From positions 62,001 to 126,000 of the forward strand of contig NZ_JANGEY010000005.1 of the NCBI RefSeq assembly GCF_024451105.1: a DNA stretch of 64,000 bases. The letters run 5' to 3'. Shown here piece by piece: positions 37,273 to 47,942 of the stretch. Both the position numbers and the translations under genes were made by a program. This DNA comes from Stutzerimonas stutzeri. Lineage in GTDB: Bacteria > Pseudomonadota > Gammaproteobacteria > Pseudomonadales > Pseudomonadaceae. Every line of letters starts with the position of its first letter. Position 1 is the first letter of the stretch. Under the pieces are notes generated by a model that was not told the origin of the DNA, ran no database searches, and saw only the letters and a list, made by a program, of their open reading frames with translations.

Positions 37273-37920
37273 TCACTTCTCCCAGTCGTGCGGGCATTCC
37301 CGGCAGCCTTCCATGTTGGTGCCCTGGAAGGTGGCGTAGTGGCGGCGCGCGCCGGCGAGGTCGACGTTCTCCAGGTTGGCGTCGTTGATCTTGGCTTCCT
37401 GCAGGTTGGCGTCGCGCAGGTTGGCGCCCTTGAAATCGGCCTTGCTCAGCCAGGCCATCTCCAGATTGGCCGCGGTGAGGTCGGCGTCGTGCAGGCGCGC
37501 CGCGGAGAGGCGGGCGAATTCCAGGTTGGCGCCGCTCAGGTCGGCGCCATCGAAGCGGGTGGCCTGGCCGTGCAGGGCCCAGCCGTTGATGGCGACCAGC
37601 CGCGCGCCGGACAGGTCGGCCAGGCGCAGGTTGGCCTGCTGCAGGCTGGCGCGGGTCAGGTCGGCCCGATGCAGCTTGGCCTTCTCCAGATTGGCCAGGT
37701 CGAGTCTGGCGTGGCGCAGGTCGGCGCCGGAGAGATCGGCGCCGGACAGGTCGATCTTGCGCAGATCCAGGTGGCGCAGGTCAGCGCCGCGCAGATCGGC
37801 GCCGGGGCAGCGGCTTTCCGCAGCCAGGCGGCAGCCGTCGATCACGGTGGTGCCCGCGTCGTCGGCCGCCTGGGCGAAGGGGGCGATCAGCAGCAGGGCG
37901 AGGGGCAGGTGTCGGTTCAT
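37273..37920 (-). CDS. Secreted pentapeptide-repeat protein of the PQQ-ADH cluster
   Basis: 215 residues with a signal peptide (MNRHLPLALLLIAPFAQA, cleaved before ADDAG), then about 150 residues of A(D/N)LXX repeats (LRGADLRHLDLRKIDLSGADLSGA and onward), predicted to form a right-handed four-sided beta helix. A C-terminal Cys pair lies in GCRECPHDW, and Cys residues in DGCRLAAESRCPG precede the repeats. Periplasmic. It lies downstream of the calcium-type quinoprotein gene on the same strand, past that gene's terminator; a similar gene neighbours the alcohol dehydrogenase of P. putida. Role unknown, perhaps a scaffold or stabiliser. Confidence 0.85.
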   Translation of the reverse strand: MNRHLPLALLLIAPFAQAADDAGTTVIDGCRLAAESRCPGADLRGADLRHLDLRKIDLSGADLSGADLRHARLDLANLEKAKLHRADLTRASLQQANLRLADLSGARLVAINGWALHGQATRFDGADLSGANLEFARLSAARLHDADLTAANLEMAWLSKADFKGANLRDANLQEAKINDANLENVDLAGARRHYATFQGTNMEGCRECPHDWEK

Positions 37921-38072: not shown

Positions 38073-39947
38073 TCAGCGCTTGGCGGTCTTGCCGTCCCAG
38101 CTCGGCAGCTTGAACACCCAGAACGAACCGCCCTGGGCGACCGGCTTGGTCAGCTCGGCCATGTCGCCGCCCCACAGCGGCACCGCGCCGCCGTAGCCGG
38201 CGGTCACGCCGATGTACTGCTCGCCGTCCATCTCCCAGGTAATCGGCGGGGAGATGATTCCGGTGCCGACGTTGAATTTCCACAGCTCCTTGCCGGTCCT
38301 GGCGTCGAAGGCCTTGAAATAGCCGTCGCCGGTGCCGGTGAACACCAGGTTGCCCTTGGTCGCCAGCACGCCGGCCCACAGCGGCAGCGGCTCCTTGTGC
38401 TCCCAGGCGACCTTGCCGGTGGTCGGGTTCATCGCGCGCAGGATGCCGACGTGGTCGTCGTACATGCGCTTGATGCGGAAGCCCTGGCCGAGATAGGCGG
38501 AGCCCTTCTTGTAGGCGACCTCCTCGGTCCAGTAGTCCTCCTTCCAGTGGTTGGCCGGTACGTAGAACAGTCCGGTGTCCTGGCTGTAGGCCATCGGGTT
38601 CCAGTTCTTGCCGCCGAGGAACGGCGGCGAGACCTCGATGGACTTGCCGTGCTTCTCGCCCGGCTCGGGCTTGGGCGGGCGCTGCCCCTCGACCTCCACC
38701 GGGCGGCCGGTCTTCAGGTCGATATGGGTCGCCCAGGTGATGCCGTCGACGAACGGGAAGGCGTTCTTGAGCTTGCCGTCCTTGCGGTCGACCACGTAGA
38801 AGAAGCCGTTGCGGTCGGCGTGGGCGGTGGCCTTGACGGTCTTACCGTGCTTGTCCTTGTAATCGAACAGCACCAGCTCGTTGTTGCCGGAGAAGTCCCA
38901 GGCGTCGTTCGGGGTGTGCTGGTAGAACCACTTCACCTCGCCGGTGGTCGGGTCGACGCCGACCTGGCCGGAGGTGTACAGGCTGTCGTAGTCCTTCGGA
39001 TCGCCGCCGTCGGCGGTGCGCGCCCAGCCGTTCCACGGCGCCGGGTTGCCGGCGCCGACGATGATGGTGTTGGTTTCCGGGTCGAAGCTGGCGCTCTGCC
39101 AGGGCGCGCCGCCGCCGTGGCTCCAGGCTTCCTTCTTGCCGGTCGGGTGGTTGGGGTCATCCGGCCAGGACGGCGCCTTGATGTCGCCGGTGGGGGTGCT
39201 CTCCTTGCCGTTCAGGCGGCCCATGTGGCCCTCGACGAACGGGCGCATCCAGACTTCCTCGCCGGTCTCCGGGTCGCGGGCGAACAGCTGGCCGACCACG
39301 CCGAACTCGTCGCCGGAGCTGCCGTGGATCAGCAGCACCTTGCCGCTCTTGCCGTCCTTCACCAGGGTCGGCGCGCCGGTCATGGTATAGCCGGCGGCGT
39401 GGTCGCCGAACTTCTTGTTCCAGACCACCTTGCCGGTATCCTTGTTCAGCGCCACGATGCGCGCGTCGAGGGTGCCGAAGTAGATCTTGTCGCCGTAGAT
39501 GGCGGCGCCGCGGTTGACCACGTCGCAGCACGGGCGGATGTCGTCGGGCAGGCGGTGGCTGTAGCTCCACAGGCGCTTGCCGGTCCTCGCGTCGAGGGCG
39601 AACACCCGCGAGTAGGAGCCGGTGACGTAGATCACCCCGTCGTGGACGATGGCCTGGGATTCCTGGCCGCGCTGCTTCTCGTCGCCGAAGGAGAAGGACC
39701 AGGCCGGGGTCAGCTTGAACACGTTGCCCGAGTTGACCTGGGCCAGCGGGCTGTAGCGCTGGGCGTGGGTGCCCATGCCGTACTGCAGCACGTTGCTGGT
39801 GGTGAGGTGATCGTTGGCGATGTCTTCCCAGCTGACCGGCTTGGCCATCGCCGGCAGGCCCAGCCCCAGGCCGGCGGCCAGCACCAGGCAGTGGATGGCG
39901 CGGCCCAGCGGGCGCGGAGCGGAAGGCAGGATCTCTCTTGTTGTCAT
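38073..39947 (-). CDS. exaA: PQQ-dependent alcohol dehydrogenase, calcium type (ExaA/PedE-like)
   Basis: Periplasmic quinoprotein that oxidises ethanol and other alcohols to aldehydes and passes electrons to a cytochrome c. 624 residues from MTTREILP; signal peptide ends AMA (residue 35). Eight-bladed propeller repeats with W-motifs ([21 protein letters not shown]). If 35 residues are removed, the key residues fall on the positions known for ExaA of P. aeruginosa: Cys105-Cys106 (PCCDVVNRG), Glu179 (SGDEFGV), Asn266 (GAGNPAPW) and catalytic Asp316 (AWDFSGN). The residue two after that Asp is Ser, the mark of calcium-type enzymes. Divergent from the cytochrome gene, with a 322-base regulatory region between them. 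Confidence 0.93.
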
Positions 39948-40033
39948 GGGGGGCGGTATCCCTGGTCGGTGGTGGAAGGCTGCGTGCGGCAGCCGCTCAC
40001 CCCGATAGTGGCCCCGCGAGGGGGCGCCGGATA

Positions 40034-40046
40034 GGGAAGGCTTCCC
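40034..40046. promoter_or_regulatory. GGGAA-N3-TTCCC palindrome
   Basis: GGGAAGGCTTCCC, a perfect 5-bp inverted repeat about 90 bases upstream of the exaA ATG; same layout as the site in the pedH leader. Confidence 0.45.
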
Positions 40047-40055
40047 GCCGTCATA

Positions 40056-40068
40056 GGGAAAAAATCCC
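40056..40068. promoter_or_regulatory. GGGAA-N3-TTCCC-like palindrome
   Basis: GGGAAAAAATCCC, one mismatch from the symmetrical form; ten bases after the site at 40034. Confidence 0.35.
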
Positions 40069-40269: not shown

Positions 40270-40710
40270 ATGAACAACAAGAAACTGCTGCCGGCCCTGC
40301 TGGCTTCCCTGGCCATCGGCGCCGCCACCCAGGTCCTGGCCCATGGCGACGTCACGCCCCAGGTGGTGAATACCGCCGGGATCGAGCAGCTGGGCGAGGA
40401 GTGGCGCGATGAGAACCCCTATCGCAAGCCGCATCCGGATCACGACAAGGCGGTGGAGATCGGCGCTTCCGCCTACAACCAGAACTGTGCGCGCTGCCAT
40501 GGCCTGGAGGCCATCTCCGGAGGCATCGCTCCCGACCTGCGCGAGCTGGAGGCCGGCCTGGACGGCGACGAGTGGTACAAGGAGCGGGTGATCAACGGCG
40601 CGGTGCGCGACGGCGCCGTGTACATGCCGCGCATGGCCGATCACCTCAGCCAGGAGGCGCTGTGGGCGATCCGTACCTACATCGAGAGCCGCGCCGAAGC
40701 GGCGGAGTAA
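40270..40710 (+). CDS. pedF: Cytochrome c-550, PedF type
   Basis: Periplasmic electron carrier expected to accept electrons from the quinoproteins. 146 residues: signal peptide (cleaved after QVLA near residue 24), one haem-binding CARCH at residues 73-77 and a likely axial Met at 119 or 122 (YMPRMADH). The His-rich stretch YRKPHPDHDKAVEIG precedes the haem site. Closest in form to the PedF-type cytochromes of quinoprotein clusters rather than the longer ExaB. RBS CGAGGTACC. The next gene begins seven bases after its stop. Confidence 0.88.
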   Translation: MNNKKLLPALLASLAIGAATQVLAHGDVTPQVVNTAGIEQLGEEWRDENPYRKPHPDHDKAVEIGASAYNQNCARCHGLEAISGGIAPDLRELEAGLDGDEWYKERVINGAVRDGAVYMPRMADHLSQEALWAIRTYIESRAEAAE

Positions 40711-40716
40711 GCCGAC

Positions 40717-41613
40717 ATGGCGCGCCTGCTGGTGGTTCTGTCGCTGTGCCTGGGGCTGTTCGCCGCGGCCCAGGCGCAGGTGCGCCCCTTCGACGACATC
40801 GTCGCCTCCGGGGTGCTCAAGGTCGCAGTCTACGAGAACTTCCCGCCCTACAGCTTCCAGCGGGACGGTCAGGCGCGCGGCGTTGACGTCGAGCTGGCGC
40901 AGAAGCTGGCCGACAGTCAGGGCCTGCGTCTGGAGCTGATGTGGATGACGCCGGGCGAGAAGCTCGACGACGACCTGCGCAACTTCGTCTGGAAGGGCCA
41001 CTACCTGCGGCCGAACGAGCTGGCCGACGTGATGCTGCGGGTACCCTACGACCGCGAGTTCTCCTACAAGCGCAACGAACTGGGCGAACTGGTCAACGAG
41101 TTGGTGGTGATGTTCGCTCCCTACCAGCGCGAGCGCTGGCAGGTGGCCCACGACAGCCGACGGCTCGAGGAGGTACCCAGCGTCGCGGTGTTCGCCTACC
41201 ACCCGATCGGCGTCGAGGTGGACAGCGTGCCGTCGTTCTACATGAGCTCGGTGTTCGGCGGGCGGATGAGCCGCAACACTCGTCACTACGGCAGTCCGCC
41301 CGAGGCCTTCGCCGCCATGCGCGAGGGCAAGGTGGACGCGGTGATGGCGATGCGCGGCGAGATCGACTGGCTGCTCCGCGAGGCCGCCGATCCGCGGCTC
41401 AAGACCGCCGACAACGCCTATCCGGAGATGGGCCGCCAGCAGTGGGACATCGGCATGGCGGTGCACGAGAGCAACCGCCAGTTGGCCTACGCCCTGGAGG
41501 GCGGCCTGGTCGAGCTGATCGGCTCCGGCGAGCTGGCGCAGATCTACGCCCGCTACGGCCTGCGCTACGAGGTGCCGGAGCTGTATGCGGGCGAGGTGCA
41601 GGCGCAGCAGTGA
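40717..41613 (+). CDS. Quinoprotein-associated periplasmic binding protein (MxaJ/XoxJ-like)
   Basis: 298 residues with a signal peptide ending AQAQ and a solute-binding (SBP_bac_3) fold: VLKVAVYENFPPYSFQRDGQARGVDVELAQKLAD near the start and GSGELAQIYARYGL near the end. Members of this family sit next to PQQ dehydrogenases; XoxJ has been proposed to help activate or mature the dehydrogenase rather than import a solute. No permease or ATPase gene is nearby, which supports that view. Second gene of a four-gene operon. Confidence 0.82.
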   Translation: MARLLVVLSLCLGLFAAAQAQVRPFDDIVASGVLKVAVYENFPPYSFQRDGQARGVDVELAQKLADSQGLRLELMWMTPGEKLDDDLRNFVWKGHYLRPNELADVMLRVPYDREFSYKRNELGELVNELVVMFAPYQRERWQVAHDSRRLEEVPSVAVFAYHPIGVEVDSVPSFYMSSVFGGRMSRNTRHYGSPPEAFAAMREGKVDAVMAMRGEIDWLLREAADPRLKTADNAYPEMGRQQWDIGMAVHESNRQLAYALEGGLVELIGSGELAQIYARYGLRYEVPELYAGEVQAQQ

Positions 41614-41713: not shown

Positions 41714-42469
41714 ATGACGATCCGAAGCATGGGCCTGGCACTGGGCTGGCTGCTGCTGAGCAATCCGCTGTGGGCGGCGGGGTCCGATCCGCTGCAGTCG
41801 CCGATGTGGAGCTTCCACCAGACCCGCTTCCTCGGCGAGGCCGCCTACGAGTTCGACGAGCGGGTGGTGCTTGGCGCCCCGCCGTTCGCCGAAGACTCGC
41901 GCCAGGTGCCGATCAGTATCGACGCCACCGCGCTCGGCCAGGAGGTGGTGCGCATCGTCGCCTGGGCCGAGCTCAATCCCATCGCGCACATCTTCACCTT
42001 CTTCCCCAGCGGTCCGGTGGCGCCGCGCATCGCCCTGAACATCCGCGTCGAGCAGGCCACGCCGATCCGCGCCGCGGTGCTGACCCGCGACGGCACCTGG
42101 CACGTCGGCTCGGCGCGTGTCGACGCCGCCGGCGGCGGCTGCACCGCGCCCAGCGCGGTGCGCGCCGAGGCCGGCTGGGAGGACCGGCTGGGCGAAATCT
42201 TCGGCGCGCGCTTCGCGCAGGGCGAGGGCAGCCGCCTGCGCCTGCGCGTCTCGCATCCGATGGACAACGGGCTGTCCGGCGGCATCCCCGAGTTCTTCAT
42301 CGAGCGCGCCGAGCTGCGCGGCACGGCCGGCGAGGTGCTGGCCAGCCTGGAGCTGCACCCCTCGGTCAGCGAGAACCCGACCCTGACCCTGCAGCTCGGC
42401 GAGCGCGAGGCCGGCCAGCGCCTGTGGCTGCGCGACAACAACGGCAACGAGTTCGAGGCGGCGTTCTGA
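41714..42469 (+). CDS. Quinoprotein-associated SoxYZ-like carrier protein
   Basis: 251 residues with a signal peptide (MTIRSMGLALGWLLLSNPLWA, cleaved near residue 21). The N-terminal half resembles SoxY and ends in AAGGGCTAPS, with Cys143 in the place of the sulfur-carrying cysteine of SoxY; the C-terminal half resembles SoxZ. In the thiosulfate-oxidising system this cysteine carries substrate; here the cargo is unknown. RBS TAGGAGGC. Third gene of the cytochrome-led operon. Confidence 0.8.
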   Translation: MTIRSMGLALGWLLLSNPLWAAGSDPLQSPMWSFHQTRFLGEAAYEFDERVVLGAPPFAEDSRQVPISIDATALGQEVVRIVAWAELNPIAHIFTFFPSGPVAPRIALNIRVEQATPIRAAVLTRDGTWHVGSARVDAAGGGCTAPSAVRAEAGWEDRLGEIFGARFAQGEGSRLRLRVSHPMDNGLSGGIPEFFIERAELRGTAGEVLASLELHPSVSENPTLTLQLGEREAGQRLWLRDNNGNEFEAAF

Positions 42470-42552
42470 GCGTCCGCCCAGCGCGGTGCGGGATCGCGGT
42501 TCGGGGCGCAGCCGAGGGCGCTGCGCCTCCATCACACCGGAAAGGAGGCAGC

Positions 42553-43491
42553 ATGCGTTTGTTCACCCTGTTCGTGGCGATCTTCCTCGGCCTGCCGCCG
42601 GCCTCGGCCGAGCTTGCCTACCGGCTGGAACCCCGGCAGATCGCCGAGAACAGCTGGCTGGTGGAGGGCAGCACGGAGAACTTCGCGGCGAGCAACGGCG
42701 GCGACATCGTCAACGTGGCGTTCATCGTCACCGACGCCGGCGTGGTGCTGATCGACACCGGCATTTCCCGACGCTACGGCGAGGCGCTGCGCGCGGCCAT
42801 CGGCCGAGTCACCGACAAGCCGGTCGTCCTGGTGATCAATACCCACCATCACCCCGACCACGTGTTCGGCAACCAGGCCTTCGCCGACGTGCCGATCGCG
42901 GCGCTGGCGCGCACCCGCGAGCTGCTCGCCGAGCAGGGCGCGGCCTTCGCCGACAACATGTACCGCCTGCTCGGCGACTGGATGCGCGGCACCGAGGTGT
43001 TCCTGCCGAGCGAGACGCTGGAGCCCGGCGTGCGCGAGATCGGCGGCCACCGCCTGCGTCTGCTGGCCTTCAGCGGGCACACCGGCGCCGACCTGGCGAT
43101 CTTCGACGAGACCACCGGCGTGCTGTTCGCCGGCGACCTGGTGTTCTACCAGCGCGCCCTGACCACCCCGCAGACCCCGGGGCTGGACGTCTGGCTGGAC
43201 GAACTGGCCGAGCTGGAGAAGCTGCCGTACCGGTTGCTGGTGCCCGGCCACGGCCCGCTCGCCACGGGCCCCGAACCTTTCGCACAGATGCGCGACTACC
43301 TCGGTTGGCTGGACGGCCTGCTGCGCGAGTCGGTCGGCCGGGGGCTGGACATGAACGAGGCGATGCGCGCGCCGATCCCCGAGCGCTTCGCCGCGATCAG
43401 TCTGACCCGCTTCGAGCTGATCCGCACGGTCAGCCACCTCTATCCGAAGTACGAGGCGCAGGTGTTCGAGCGGGTGGACCGGACGCCGTAA
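42553..43491 (+). CDS. Quinoprotein relay system zinc metallohydrolase
   Basis: 312 residues with a signal peptide (MRLFTLFVAIFLGLPPASA). Metallo-beta-lactamase fold: zinc motif HHHPDH (residues about 98-103), FSGHTGADLAIF and the later ligands FAGDLVF and PGHGPL. Periplasmic. It looks like the metallohydrolase 1 family that accompanies the SoxYZ-like carrier in quinoprotein clusters; a hydrolase acting on a carrier-bound product fits the context but is not shown. RBS AAAGGAGG. Last gene of the operon, followed by a hairpin. Confidence 0.82.
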   Translation: MRLFTLFVAIFLGLPPASAELAYRLEPRQIAENSWLVEGSTENFAASNGGDIVNVAFIVTDAGVVLIDTGISRRYGEALRAAIGRVTDKPVVLVINTHHHPDHVFGNQAFADVPIAALARTRELLAEQGAAFADNMYRLLGDWMRGTEVFLPSETLEPGVREIGGHRLRLLAFSGHTGADLAIFDETTGVLFAGDLVFYQRALTTPQTPGLDVWLDELAELEKLPYRLLVPGHGPLATGPEPFAQMRDYLGWLDGLLRESVGRGLDMNEAMRAPIPERFAAISLTRFELIRTVSHLYPKYEAQVFERVDRTP

Positions 43492-43997: not shown

Positions 43998-44022
43998 CAA
44001 GCCCCGCCGTGTGCGGGGCTTG
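43998..44022 (+). terminator. Hairpin after the Cys-rich gene
   Basis: Perfect 10-bp stem CAAGCCCCGC / GCGGGGCTTG with a CGTGT loop; only TCG follows. Confidence 0.6.
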
Positions 44023-44095
44023 TCGATTCCGGGGCGCGGCCTTGTCGCTCCGCCGGGCACTGACTAGGGTTCTCTCAGTCGGTCCGGGCGAGGCG

Positions 44096-45985
44096 ATGGG
44101 CATGACGGGCTCTCAGCTGGCGATTGTCGCGGTGCTGCTGGTCACCCTGGGATTGTTCCTCTGGGGGCGCTGGCGGCACGACCTGGTGGCGCTGGCCGCC
44201 CTGCTGGCCTGCGTGCTGCTCGAGCTGGTGCCGGCCGACGCGGCCTTCGCCGGCTTCGGCCACCCGGCGGTGATCACCGTCGCCTGCGTGCTGGTGCTCG
44301 GCCAGGGCCTGCAGCAGAGCGGCGCGGTGGACGTGCTGGCGCAGCGCCTGCTGCCGAGCGGCGGCGGGCCGACCGCCAGCCGGCTGGCGCTGCTCGCACT
44401 GGCCGCCCTGCTGTCGGGCTTCATGAACAACGTCGGCGCCCTGGCCTTGCTGATGCCGCTGGCCCTGCAACTGGCGGCGCGGCATGAGATGGCCCCGGGG
44501 CGGCTGCTGATGCCGCTGTCCTTCGCCTCGATTCTCGGCGGCATGACCACCCTGATCGGCACGCCGCCCAACCTGATCGTTTCCGGCTACCGGGCGAGCA
44601 CAGGCCTGGGCGACTACGCGATGTTCGACTTCGCCCCGGTGGGCCTGGCCGTGGCGCTGCTCGGCGTGCTGTTCGTCGGCCTGCTCGGCTGGCGCTGGGT
44701 GCCGGCGCAGCGCCCGGCCGGCACCACGCACTTCGAGAGCGACAGCTATCTCAGCGAGGTGCGCATCGCGGAGGGCAGCAAGGCGGCCGACCGGATGCTC
44801 CGCGAGGTCGAGCAACTGCTCGACGACTACGACGCGCAGATCGTCGGGCTGGTCCGCCATGACCTGCGCATCGCCTCGCCGGCGCCGCGCCGCCGTCTGC
44901 GGGCCGGCGACATCCTGATCATCGAGGTCGAGCCGGAGTCGCTGGGCCAGGTGCTGTCCAGCCTCGGCGCCAAGCTGGAAGAGGACGTGCAGCAGCCGGC
45001 TGCGGCGCAGGTGGCCGGCCCGGAGGGCGACCGGGCATCCGTCCCGGTCGCGGACGCGGCGCAGGGCGCGACGTCGGCGGCGAACGCGGAGCCCGCGGAG
45101 GCGGCGCCGAAGAACCGGGTCGGCAGCGAGGAGGTGGTGATCCGCGAGCTGGTGGTGATGCCGGGCTCCAGTCTGATCCGCCGCTCGGCCCGGGACCTGG
45201 AGCTGCGCAGCCGCCATGGCATCAGCCTGCTGGCGATCTCGCGGCAGGGCCTGCGGGTGATCCGCCGTCTGCGCTCGACCCCACTGCGCGCCGGCGACAT
45301 GCTGCTGCTGCAGGGCGGCGAGGAGGCGCTGGCCGGCTTTGCCGCGCTGTTCGGCTGCCTGCCGCTGGCGCCGCGGGACATCCGCGTGCCGAAGCAGGGC
45401 CAGGCGCTGCTCGCCGGCGGGCTGATGCTGGTGGCGGTGGCGCTCGCCGCCTTCGGCGTGCTACCGCCGGCGCTGGCCTTCGCCGGCGGCGCGCTGGCCT
45501 TCGCGGTGACCAACGTGGTACCGCCGCGCGCCCTGTACACGGCGATCGACTGGCCGGTGATCGTGCTGCTCGGCGCCATGCTGCCGGTGGCCGACGCCAT
45601 GCTGACCAGCGGCGCGGCCGACGTCATCGCCCGCTTCCTGCTCGAGCGGCTGGCCGGCGGCGAGGCGGTGCTGGCGCTGGTGCTGCTGCTGGTGGTGACC
45701 ATGTTCCTCTCCGACCTGATGAACAACGCCGCCACCGCCGCGGTGATGAGTCCGATCGCCCTGAGCAGCGCGGCGCAGCTGGCGGTCAACGCCGACGCCT
45801 TCCTGATGGCCATCGCGGTCGGCGCCTCCTGCGCCTTCCTCACCCCCATCGGCCACCAGAACAACACCCTGATCCTCGGCCCCGGCGGGCTGCGCTTCGG
45901 CGACTTCTGGCGCCTGGGACTGGCGCTGGAGATGCTGGTGGTGGCGGTGGGAGTGCCGCTGCTGCTATGGGTCTGGCCGCTCTGA
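44096..45985 (+). CDS. SLC13/DASS-type transporter with two RCK_C domains
   Basis: 629 residues (start [15 protein letters not shown] six bases later is equally possible). About ten membrane segments in two halves, with a cytoplasmic insert (residues about 210-450) that holds two TrkA-C (RCK_C) domains separated by an Ala/Pro-rich linker. The substrate/sodium motifs are duplicated: [13 protein letters not shown] with [13 protein letters not shown] in the first half, and [12 protein letters not shown] with [16 protein letters not shown] in the second. The family moves sulfate, dicarboxylates or other anions with sodium. Its place in the alcohol island suggests an acid product or substrate, but that is inference. 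Confidence 0.82.
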
Positions 45986-46042: not shown

Positions 46043-46110
46043 AAGCATGTCTTTGCTCCCCGCGATCAATTGTTGCACTACCCCCTGCGGCGAAGAATTC
46101 ACTGCAGACC

Positions 46111-46123
46111 GGGAAAAATTCCC
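46111..46123. promoter_or_regulatory. GGGAA-N3-TTCCC palindrome upstream of pedH
   Basis: GGGAAAAATTCCC, a perfect inverted repeat (extended to CCGGGAA/TTCCCGG at 46109-46125), 35 bases before the ATG and 69 bases after the TACCAAGG motif. Confidence 0.45.
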
Positions 46124-46157
46124 GGCACATAACAATGAACCCGCAGAGGTAGCCGCA

Positions 46158-47942
46158 ATGAAGCACTCCGGTCTCACCCATTCCTTTGCCAGGACCACGC
46201 TGGGCCTTGCGCTGGCGCTGGCCGGCGCGTCGGCCTGGGCCGTCAGCGACGAGGAGATCCTCAAGGACGCCCAGACCACCGACAGGATCGTCACCAACGG
46301 CCTGGGCCTGCAGGGCCAGCGCTACAGCACCCTGGATACCCTCAACACCGGCAACGTCAAGGAGCTGCGTCCGGTCTGGGCCTTCTCCTTCGGCGGCGAG
46401 AAGCAGCGCGGCCAGCAGGCCCAGCCGCTGGTCAAGGACGGCGTGATGTACATGACCGCCTCCTATTCGCGGGTGTTCGCTGTCGATGCGCGTACCGGCA
46501 AGGAGCTCTGGCAGTACGACGCGCGCCTGCCCGACGGCATCATGCCATGTTGCGACGTGATCAACCGCGGCGTCGCCCTGTACGACGATCTGGTGATCTT
46601 CGGCACCCTCGACGCCAAGCTGGTCGCCCTCAACAAGGACACCGGCAAGGTGGTCTGGCGCAAGACCGTGGCCGACTACAAGGCCGGCTACTCGATCACC
46701 GCGGCGCCGCTGATCGTCAACGGCAAGCTGATCACCGGGGTGTCCGGCGGCGAGTTCGGCGTGGTCGGCAAGATCGAAGCCTACAATCCGAAGAACGGCG
46801 AGCTGCTGTGGACCCGGCCGACCGTCGAAGGCCACATGGGCTACGTCTGGAAGGACGGCAAGAAGGTCGAGAACGGCATTACCGGCGGCCAGGCCGGCAA
46901 GACCTGGCCGGGCGACCTGTGGCAGACCGGCGGCGCGGCGCCGTGGCTGGGCGGCTACTACGATCCGGAGACCAACCAGCTGCTGTTCGGCACCGGCAAC
47001 CCGGCGCCGTGGAACTCGCACCTGCGCCCCGGCGACAACCTCTACTCGTCCTCGCGTCTGGCGCTGAACCCCGACGACGGCACCATCAAGTGGCACTTCC
47101 AGACCACTCCGCACGACGGCTGGGACTTCGACGGCGTCAACGAGCTGATCTCCTTCAACTATCAGGACGGCGGCAAGACCGTGAAGGCGGCGGCCACCGC
47201 CGACCGCAACGGCTTCTTCTACGTGCTCGACCGCACCAACGGCAAGTTCATCCGCGGCTTCCCGTTCGTCGACAAGATCACCTGGGCCAAGGGGCTGGAC
47301 AAGAACGGCCGGCCGATCTACGACGACGCCAACCGTCCGGGCTCGCCGAACGAGGCCGGCGCGCAGGGCAAGACCGTCACCGTGGCGCCGTCGTTCCTCG
47401 GCGGCAAGAACTGGATGCCGATGGCCTACAGCCAGGACACCGGGCTGTTCTACGTGCCCTCCAACGAGTGGAGCATGGACATCTGGAACGAGGGCACCGC
47501 CTACAAGAAGGGCGCGGCCTACCTGGGCGCCGGCTTCACCATCCACCCGCTCAACGACGACTACATCGGCGTGCTGCGCGCCATCGACCCGAAGACCGGC
47601 AAGGAGGTCTGGCGCTACAAGAACTACGCGCCGCTGTGGGGCGGTGTGCTGGCCACCAAGGGCAACCTGGTGTTCACCGGCAACCCGGAAGGCTACCTGA
47701 TGGCCTTCGACGCCAAGACCGGCCAGAAGCTCTACGAGTTCAACACCGGCTCGGGCGTGATCGGCTCGCCGATCACCTGGGAGATGGACGGCGAGCAGTA
47801 CGTCTCGGTACTGTCCGGCTGGGGCGGCGCCGTGCCGCTGTGGGGCGGCGAGGTGGCCAAGCGGGTCAAGGACTTCAACCAGGGCGGCATGGTCTGGACC
47901 TTCAAGCTGCCGAAGGAGGTCGCGGCGGTGGCCAAGCGCTGA
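46158..47942 (+). CDS. pedH: PQQ-dependent alcohol dehydrogenase, lanthanide type (PedH/XoxF-like)
   Basis: Second periplasmic quinoprotein, 594 residues from MKHSGLTH; signal peptide ends AWA (residue 28). Propeller W-motifs such as [11 protein letters not shown] are present, and the vicinal disulfide is Cys131-Cys132 (PCCDVINRG). Metal ligands Glu199 (SGGEFGV) and Asn281 (GTGNPAPW) and catalytic Asp323 are in place, but here the sequence is GWDFDGVNE. Asp325, two residues after the catalytic Asp, is the extra lanthanide ligand of XoxF and PedH. It is clearly related to exaA (38073) but not a recent copy. Its own promoter region carries the TACCAAGG and GGGAA-N3-TTCCC motifs. Followed by a strong terminator. 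Confidence 0.92.

Follow-up and report, generated by a model that had tools for sequence, protein, structure and literature searches.

Gene content of the locus

In the 64,000-nucleotide stretch of Stutzerimonas stutzeri DNA analysed here (the window; NCBI RefSeq assembly GCF_024451105.1, contig NZ_JANGEY010000005.1, positions 62,001 to 126,000 of the forward strand), a fused SoxYZ-like carrier and a zinc hydrolase are encoded one directly after the other, within a cluster of genes for PQQ-dependent alcohol dehydrogenases and their accessory proteins (Table 1). The cluster opens with a pedD-like gene and a Ca-type PQQ alcohol dehydrogenase gene, both on the reverse strand, continues with pedF, pedG, the carrier and the hydrolase, and proceeds downstream of the hydrolase with a small cysteine-containing frame, a transporter-like gene, an Ln-type PQQ dehydrogenase gene, a chemoreceptor-like gene, exaC and pqqB. 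The two dehydrogenases match TIGR03075 with 777.6 and 799.1 bits. Since pedF, pedG, the carrier and the hydrolase lie on the same strand, separated by only 6, 100 and 83 bases, respectively, and no terminator-like site was found on the coding strand between pedF and the hydrolase, the single operon claimed for these genes in an earlier note on this DNA is plausible, although not proven. The same note described the product of pedG as MxaJ-like, a likeness to MxaJ/XoxJ that has been drawn from structure (PMC12997753) but is not carried by the MoxJ model, against which this SBP_bac_3 protein scores only 16.8 of the 212 bits of the cut-off.

Table 1. Features of the cluster, with positions in the window.
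Feature	Position	Strand	Evidence
PedD pentapeptide-repeat protein	37273..37920	-	profile scan
Ca-type PQQ alcohol dehydrogenase (PedE/ExaA-like)	38073..40067 (frame open to about 40067; true start further in)	-	motif PNDAWDFS
Cytochrome c550 PedF	40270..40710	+	TIGR04494, 210.7 bits, cut-off 122
PedG, MxaJ/XoxJ-like periplasmic binding protein	40717..41613	+	profile scans; PMC12997753
SoxYZ-like fused carrier (TIGR04557; PP_2677-type), 251 aa	41714..42469	+	profile matches, structure model
Codon of Cys143, end of the SoxY-like domain	42140..42142	+	GGGC motif
Secreted MBL-fold zinc hydrolase (TIGR04558; PP_2678-type), 312 aa	42553..43491	+	profile match
Small cysteine-containing frame, 100 aa	43667..43969	+	
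Transporter-like gene	44009..45985	+	SLC13-like with TrkA-C-like parts, by eye
Ln-type PQQ alcohol dehydrogenase (PedH-like)	46047..47942 (46047 is the frame start; true start may be further in)	+	motif PHDGWDFD

The small frame right behind the hydrolase, which starts MNCKTDGNLDDLHECCGQCDG, matches no family of NCBIfam or Pfam, and the other carrier and dehydrogenase loci that were fetched hold no relative of it; likewise, no relative of the transporter-like gene was found in the other fetched loci.

The set is not new to the databases: NCBIfam already names both families, TIGR04557 as 'quinoprotein dehydrogenase-associated SoxYZ-like carrier' and TIGR04558 as 'quinoprotein relay system zinc metallohydrolase 1', and the pair is the standard one that corresponds to PP_2677 and PP_2678 of P. 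putida. In P. putida the two genes likewise follow pedF and pedG and occupy the same place between the pedE- and pedH-type genes, whereas here a long transporter-like gene intervenes between hydrolase and Ln-type dehydrogenase. A 2026 review treats PP_2677 and PP_2678, reports that RB-TnSeq on alcohols, with no rare earths added, gave minimal phenotypes for these P. putida genes, and records as proposed roles a function under lanthanide conditions, disulfide formation, cofactor stabilisation and the shielding of PQQ from sulfur nucleophiles (PMC12997753). A 2024 study of SoxY families described fused SoxYZ proteins encoded beside soxH and PQQ dehydrogenases and suggested protection from thiosulfate (PMC11237559). 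The claim that the biochemical step itself is undescribed holds for the literature consulted, in which no description of the biochemistry of the pair was found.

The carrier and the hydrolase

The carrier gene starts with an ATG behind a good AGGAGG site, and encodes an N-terminal signal-like segment followed by a SoxY-like domain (PF13501, 87 bits, residues 38-143) and a SoxZ-like domain (PF08770, 35 bits, residues 168-249). With 197.4 bits over profile positions 1-226 of 226, above the cut-off of 140, the protein is a member of TIGR04557, and its nearest named relatives, from P. linyingensis, P. sagittaria and Pseudomonas sp. A-1, are 90% identical to it. Against the model of true SoxY proteins, TIGR04488, it reaches 42.8 bits, below the cut-off of 125, and the C-terminal GGCGG is absent. 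The SoxY-like GGGC carrier with Cys143 of the earlier reading was confirmed to the exact base, and this residue, in the context AAGGGCTAPS, is the sole cysteine of the precursor. A single cysteine in the mature part was found in 40 of 41 carriers, G141, G142, C143, H181, P182 and G186 are invariant across the 41 carrier loci, which come from many families, and GGC is kept in every one of the 109 carriers examined (41/41 loci and 68/68 further carriers). Because of its single cysteine the carrier cannot form an internal disulfide, which suits a covalent carrier role.

In the structure model of the carrier (mean pLDDT 83.7) the closest matches of the SoxY-like domain are true SoxY structures, with Z 10.3-11.1 over 107-114 aligned residues. 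The SoxY chain of the SoxYZ complex is among them, at a Z of about 11 and 2.3 A over 107 residues, and unrelated structures follow at Z 5.6. Foldseek matches to antibody domains were set aside as a common beta-sandwich likeness. The fold of the SoxZ-like half was barely probed, no SoxZ structure appearing among the structure matches listed. The SoxYZ of thiosulfate oxidation (PDB 2ox5, 2oxg, 4uwq) shares the SoxY-like fold and has its GGC cysteine at the matching place, but there SoxZ is a separate protein and the cysteine sits on a free C-terminal GGCGG tail, whereas here a single fused chain carries it on an internal linker loop tethered at both ends, with TAPS and the SoxZ-like domain coming after it. 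Residues 125-129 of the model, just past the cysteine (model residue 123), have a pLDDT below 50, as would be expected of a flexible linker. A partner of the carrier would have to accept a loop, and an open MBL-type site could do so.

The hydrolase gene, which also starts with an ATG, encodes a cysteine-free protein with a signal-like N-terminus, a TIGR04558 match of 418.9 bits (cut-off 300) and all seven ligands of a di-zinc site (H98, H100, D102, H103, H176, D195 and H233; motif HHHPDH), in agreement with the secreted zinc hydrolase proposed beforehand. Its fold and di-zinc motif are shared with SoxH and glyoxalase II-type MBL-fold hydrolases, and its structural likenesses include 2xf4 and the thioesterase PqsE. 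Nevertheless, it scores 30.7 bits against the glyoxalase II model TIGR03413, far below the cut-off of 200.8, is no closer to GloB than to lactamases, a dehalogenase and alkylsulfatases, and belongs to a secreted subfamily of its own. The MBL fold is common to many activities and does not identify the bond that this enzyme cuts. In the Pseudomonas group, the hydrolase lies in the same locus as the carrier in 80/80 carrier loci, so the pairing is not due to chance, and its zinc site is intact in 80/80.

Co-distribution with a rhodanese-like protein

The distribution of the carrier was followed in a phylum sample of 349 genomes, 39 of them with the carrier, and in a sample of 138 Pseudomonadaceae genomes; lower-scoring matches with internal stop codons, most likely ordinary unfused soxYZ, were left out. 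Among 41 carrier loci, that of the window included, the hydrolase occurs in 36 and a rhodanese-like protein of family TIGR03865 (CXXCW) in 28, all 28 of these proteins having a CX3CW loop with both cysteines. Genome-wide, TIGR03865 scores above its cut-off in 35/39 carrier genomes of the phylum sample and in 0/14 comparison genomes without the carrier, one of which, G039, is without a real type-I enzyme (best TIGR03075 match 34 bits); Fisher's test gives p of about 1e-9 when kinship among the genomes is ignored. Likewise, within the Pseudomonadaceae it was found in 12/13 carrier genomes tested, the sole exception being 83% complete, and in 0/19 dehydrogenase-positive genomes without the carrier. 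The host genome has a match of 216.2 bits (G000:C1:431804-432274) on a contig other than that of the carrier, as the last gene of the pedA1-A2-B-C operon, with a LuxR-type regulator next; in P. putida, by contrast, the corresponding gene PP_2666 lies in the same gene cluster as the pair.

Eighteen loci fetched around dehydrogenase motif matches without the carrier contain neither the hydrolase nor TIGR03865, and many of them retain genes of the PedG/MoxJ type, pedF and pedABC. At seven loci carrier, hydrolase and rhodanese-like protein are encoded together in a compact operon, and no dehydrogenase lies within some 10 kb of it; for this reason the trio looks like one functional unit. What is new here, judging from gene distribution, is that the named pair appears to be two-thirds of a three-protein module completed by TIGR03865.

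Another recurrent neighbour of the carrier, seen at more than eight loci and usually on the opposite strand, is family F14, a short protein of about 128 aa that contains cysteine, looks secreted and has no NCBIfam match. Near the carrier of four loci lie SsuA/SsuC-like genes of an aliphatic-sulfonate or taurine-type ABC transporter, which may be another hint of sulfur chemistry.

Link to quinoproteins and metal preference

A link of the pair to quinoprotein alcohol oxidation had been proposed from gene neighbourhood, and the wider comparison upholds it. With dehydrogenases typed by motif pattern, so that counts are approximate (the Ln pattern gave at least one chance match, in G039, and missed the variant PEDAWDYD of G191), the carrier occurs in 58/78 Pseudomonadaceae genomes with a type-I enzyme pattern, the other 20 being without it, and in 1/60 genomes without such a pattern; that single genome is 85% complete and holds a truncated piece of a dehydrogenase. 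In the phylum sample the Ln pattern is present in 37/39 carrier genomes, or 38/39 with G191, an apparent lanthanide link to be read in view of the rarity of Ca-only genomes there. The Pseudomonadaceae sample allows the two types to be compared, and the carrier is found in 12/19 Ca-only, 15/18 Ln-only and 31/41 dual genomes, Ca-only and Ln-only genomes showing no difference at these small numbers (p = 0.27). In the 12 Ca-only carrier genomes, profile searches turned up no enzyme of the Ln type; the motif of the type-I enzyme is WDFS in 12/12, three genomes have an additional WD[FY]T enzyme, and TIGR03865 accompanies the carrier in 11/12. Contrary to the suggestion in PMC12997753, the module thus appears from its distribution not to be lanthanide-specific and probably serves Ca- and Ln-type enzymes alike. 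Seven genomes of one genus (g189) have both Ca- and Ln-type patterns but neither the carrier nor TIGR03865.

Loss of zinc ligands in one branch

In the phylum sample, TIGR03865 is absent from four carrier genomes, and these are the ones in which the neighbouring hydrolase has lost zinc ligands, reading N-H-D-Y-H-G-H or H-R-E-F-S-G-H instead of H-H-D-H-H-D-H. A wider sample was taken of the family that is home to three of the four (f11; 240 genomes, 50 of them with the carrier), and TIGR03865 was above its cut-off in none of the 50. A hydrolase could be scored at the fetched loci of 45 f11 genomes: in 34 of them every scored copy is degenerate, 11 have an intact one, in nine cases beside a degenerate copy, and the carriers retain GGC in 68/68. 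A strict rule that the zinc site is lost wherever the rhodanese is absent was rejected on the strength of those 11 rhodanese-less genomes with an intact hydrolase; loss of the site is seen only where the rhodanese is absent, and its absence does not force the loss. Hydrolases without the full site group mainly into two well-supported f11 clades of the tree (L231-L290), and since essentially one host family is concerned, the loss amounts to one or a few evolutionary events. The zinc sites of these two clades are degenerate and yet conserved, which makes their hydrolases candidate non-catalytic partners.

This pattern suggests that the rhodanese and the hydrolase chemistry belong to one pathway, and that the carrier cysteine has a use able to outlive both. 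Because f11 keeps GGC without the rhodanese and mostly with degenerate hydrolases, the complete relay is not needed everywhere, and the release of a cysteine-bound group by the hydrolase, which the earlier note implied, cannot be universal.

Discussion

We tentatively propose that the three proteins constitute a periplasmic module accessory to type-I PQQ alcohol dehydrogenases and act, most likely, as a sulfur-handling relay. We hypothesize that the rhodanese-like protein would move a sulfur species (sulfane sulfur, or a sulfite or thiosulfate adduct) to or from Cys143, and that the di-zinc hydrolase would cleave the group bound to this cysteine and restore the thiol. Reactive sulfur would thereby be kept off both PQQ and the disulfide between adjacent cysteines of the quinoprotein, in Ca and lanthanide enzymes alike. 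This reading is the best supported because it draws together a carrier domain of the sulfur type with one cysteine, a rhodanese-like partner and a reported sensitivity to sulfur of growth that depends on quinoproteins: in Hyphomicrobium denitrificans, as cited in PMC12997753, thiosulfate inhibits growth on methanol but not on formate, and PQQ-sulfur adducts are suspected. A protective role has also been suggested in PMC11237559. The SoxYZ-S2 and SoxYZ-S4 fusions of sulfur-oxidising symbionts described there likewise have soxH and the gene of a PQQ alcohol or methanol dehydrogenase as neighbours, with a rhodanese gene in the legend of the gene map, although their hosts also oxidise sulfur compounds.

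Next in support comes a role in maturation, a maturation group having been the second option of the earlier note. In this reading the module would make or repair the adjacent-cysteine disulfide, or seat PQQ or the metal, with Cys143 forming mixed disulfides with the rhodanese-like CX3C protein. The adjacent genes for PedF and the PedG/MxaJ-type protein, the two invariant cysteines of the rhodanese-like partner and the disulfide or cofactor roles put forward in PMC12997753 make this possible, if on the unlikely side, but a carrier with one cysteine is unable to pass on a disulfide by itself, a type-I dehydrogenase pattern without the carrier is present in at least 20 Pseudomonadaceae genomes, the PedG/MoxJ-type genes persist in carrier-less dehydrogenase loci, and the di-zinc hydrolase is left unexplained. 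The cargo suggested in the earlier note, a product of alcohol oxidation, is possible as well but less favoured: an aldehyde made by the quinoprotein would be bound to Cys143 as a thiohemiacetal, be oxidised to a thioester and be hydrolysed by the MBL-fold enzyme as by glyoxalase II. The genomic link to alcohol oxidation and the distant likeness of the hydrolase to hydroxyacylglutathione hydrolase and PqsE agree with such a scheme, which nevertheless looks distinctly improbable, because some carrier loci lie apart from any alcohol dehydrogenase and Ca- and Ln-type enzymes are served alike; moreover, other MBL activities are at least as close, many f11 hydrolases have no zinc ligands while the cysteine stays, and the scheme has no role for the rhodanese-like partner. 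It is this third protein, missed in the earlier note, that favours a sulfur cargo over an alcohol-oxidation product. A broader alternative, in which a three-protein relay dedicated to quinoproteins would handle something other than inorganic sulfur, either a thiohemiacetal or thioester formed from an aldehyde or an adduct of PQQ origin, and in which the hydrolase of the rhodanese-less branch would be a non-catalytic binding partner, is in our view unlikely; if true, it would mean a carrier chemistry not yet described.

That the module serves only Ln-dependent enzymes (PedH, XoxF, ExaF), as put forward in PMC12997753, is very doubtful. The Ln-type enzyme of nearly all carrier genomes in the phylum sample is in its favour, as is the position of the host CXXCW gene at the end of the pedA1-A2-B-C operon, the P. 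putida counterpart of which is described as a lanthanide transporter (PMC12997753), but the Ca-only Pseudomonadaceae that keep the carrier and, with one exception, the CXXCW protein, with no Ln-type enzyme among them, weigh against it, as does the similar carrier frequency in the two groups, small as these are. Descent from, or a branch of, the energy-yielding Sox oxidation of thiosulfate is hardly credible. The carrier has Sox family domains, and SoxH could replace SoxB in work known to us as cited in PMC11237559; however, the carrier falls well short of the true SoxY model, a genome-wide search of the host returned the single TIGR04557 match and no unfused SoxYZ, and the cluster in the window showed neither SoxAX, SoxB, SoxCD nor any further sox gene.

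The sulfur relay therefore remains our preferred reading, ahead of maturation. PQQ alcohol dehydrogenases drive the use of methanol and other alcohols in many bacteria and underlie lanthanide biology, and the accessory proteins considered here are widespread around them, with no chemistry assigned so far. The comparative results sharpen this open question and weaken the published lanthanide suggestion, and experiments under lanthanide-only conditions may miss the phenotype of the module. The g189 genomes provide natural comparison strains for its contribution. Carrier, hydrolase and rhodanese-like protein are mostly gained and lost together, whatever the metal of the dehydrogenase, which leaves three genes and one cysteine as the targets.
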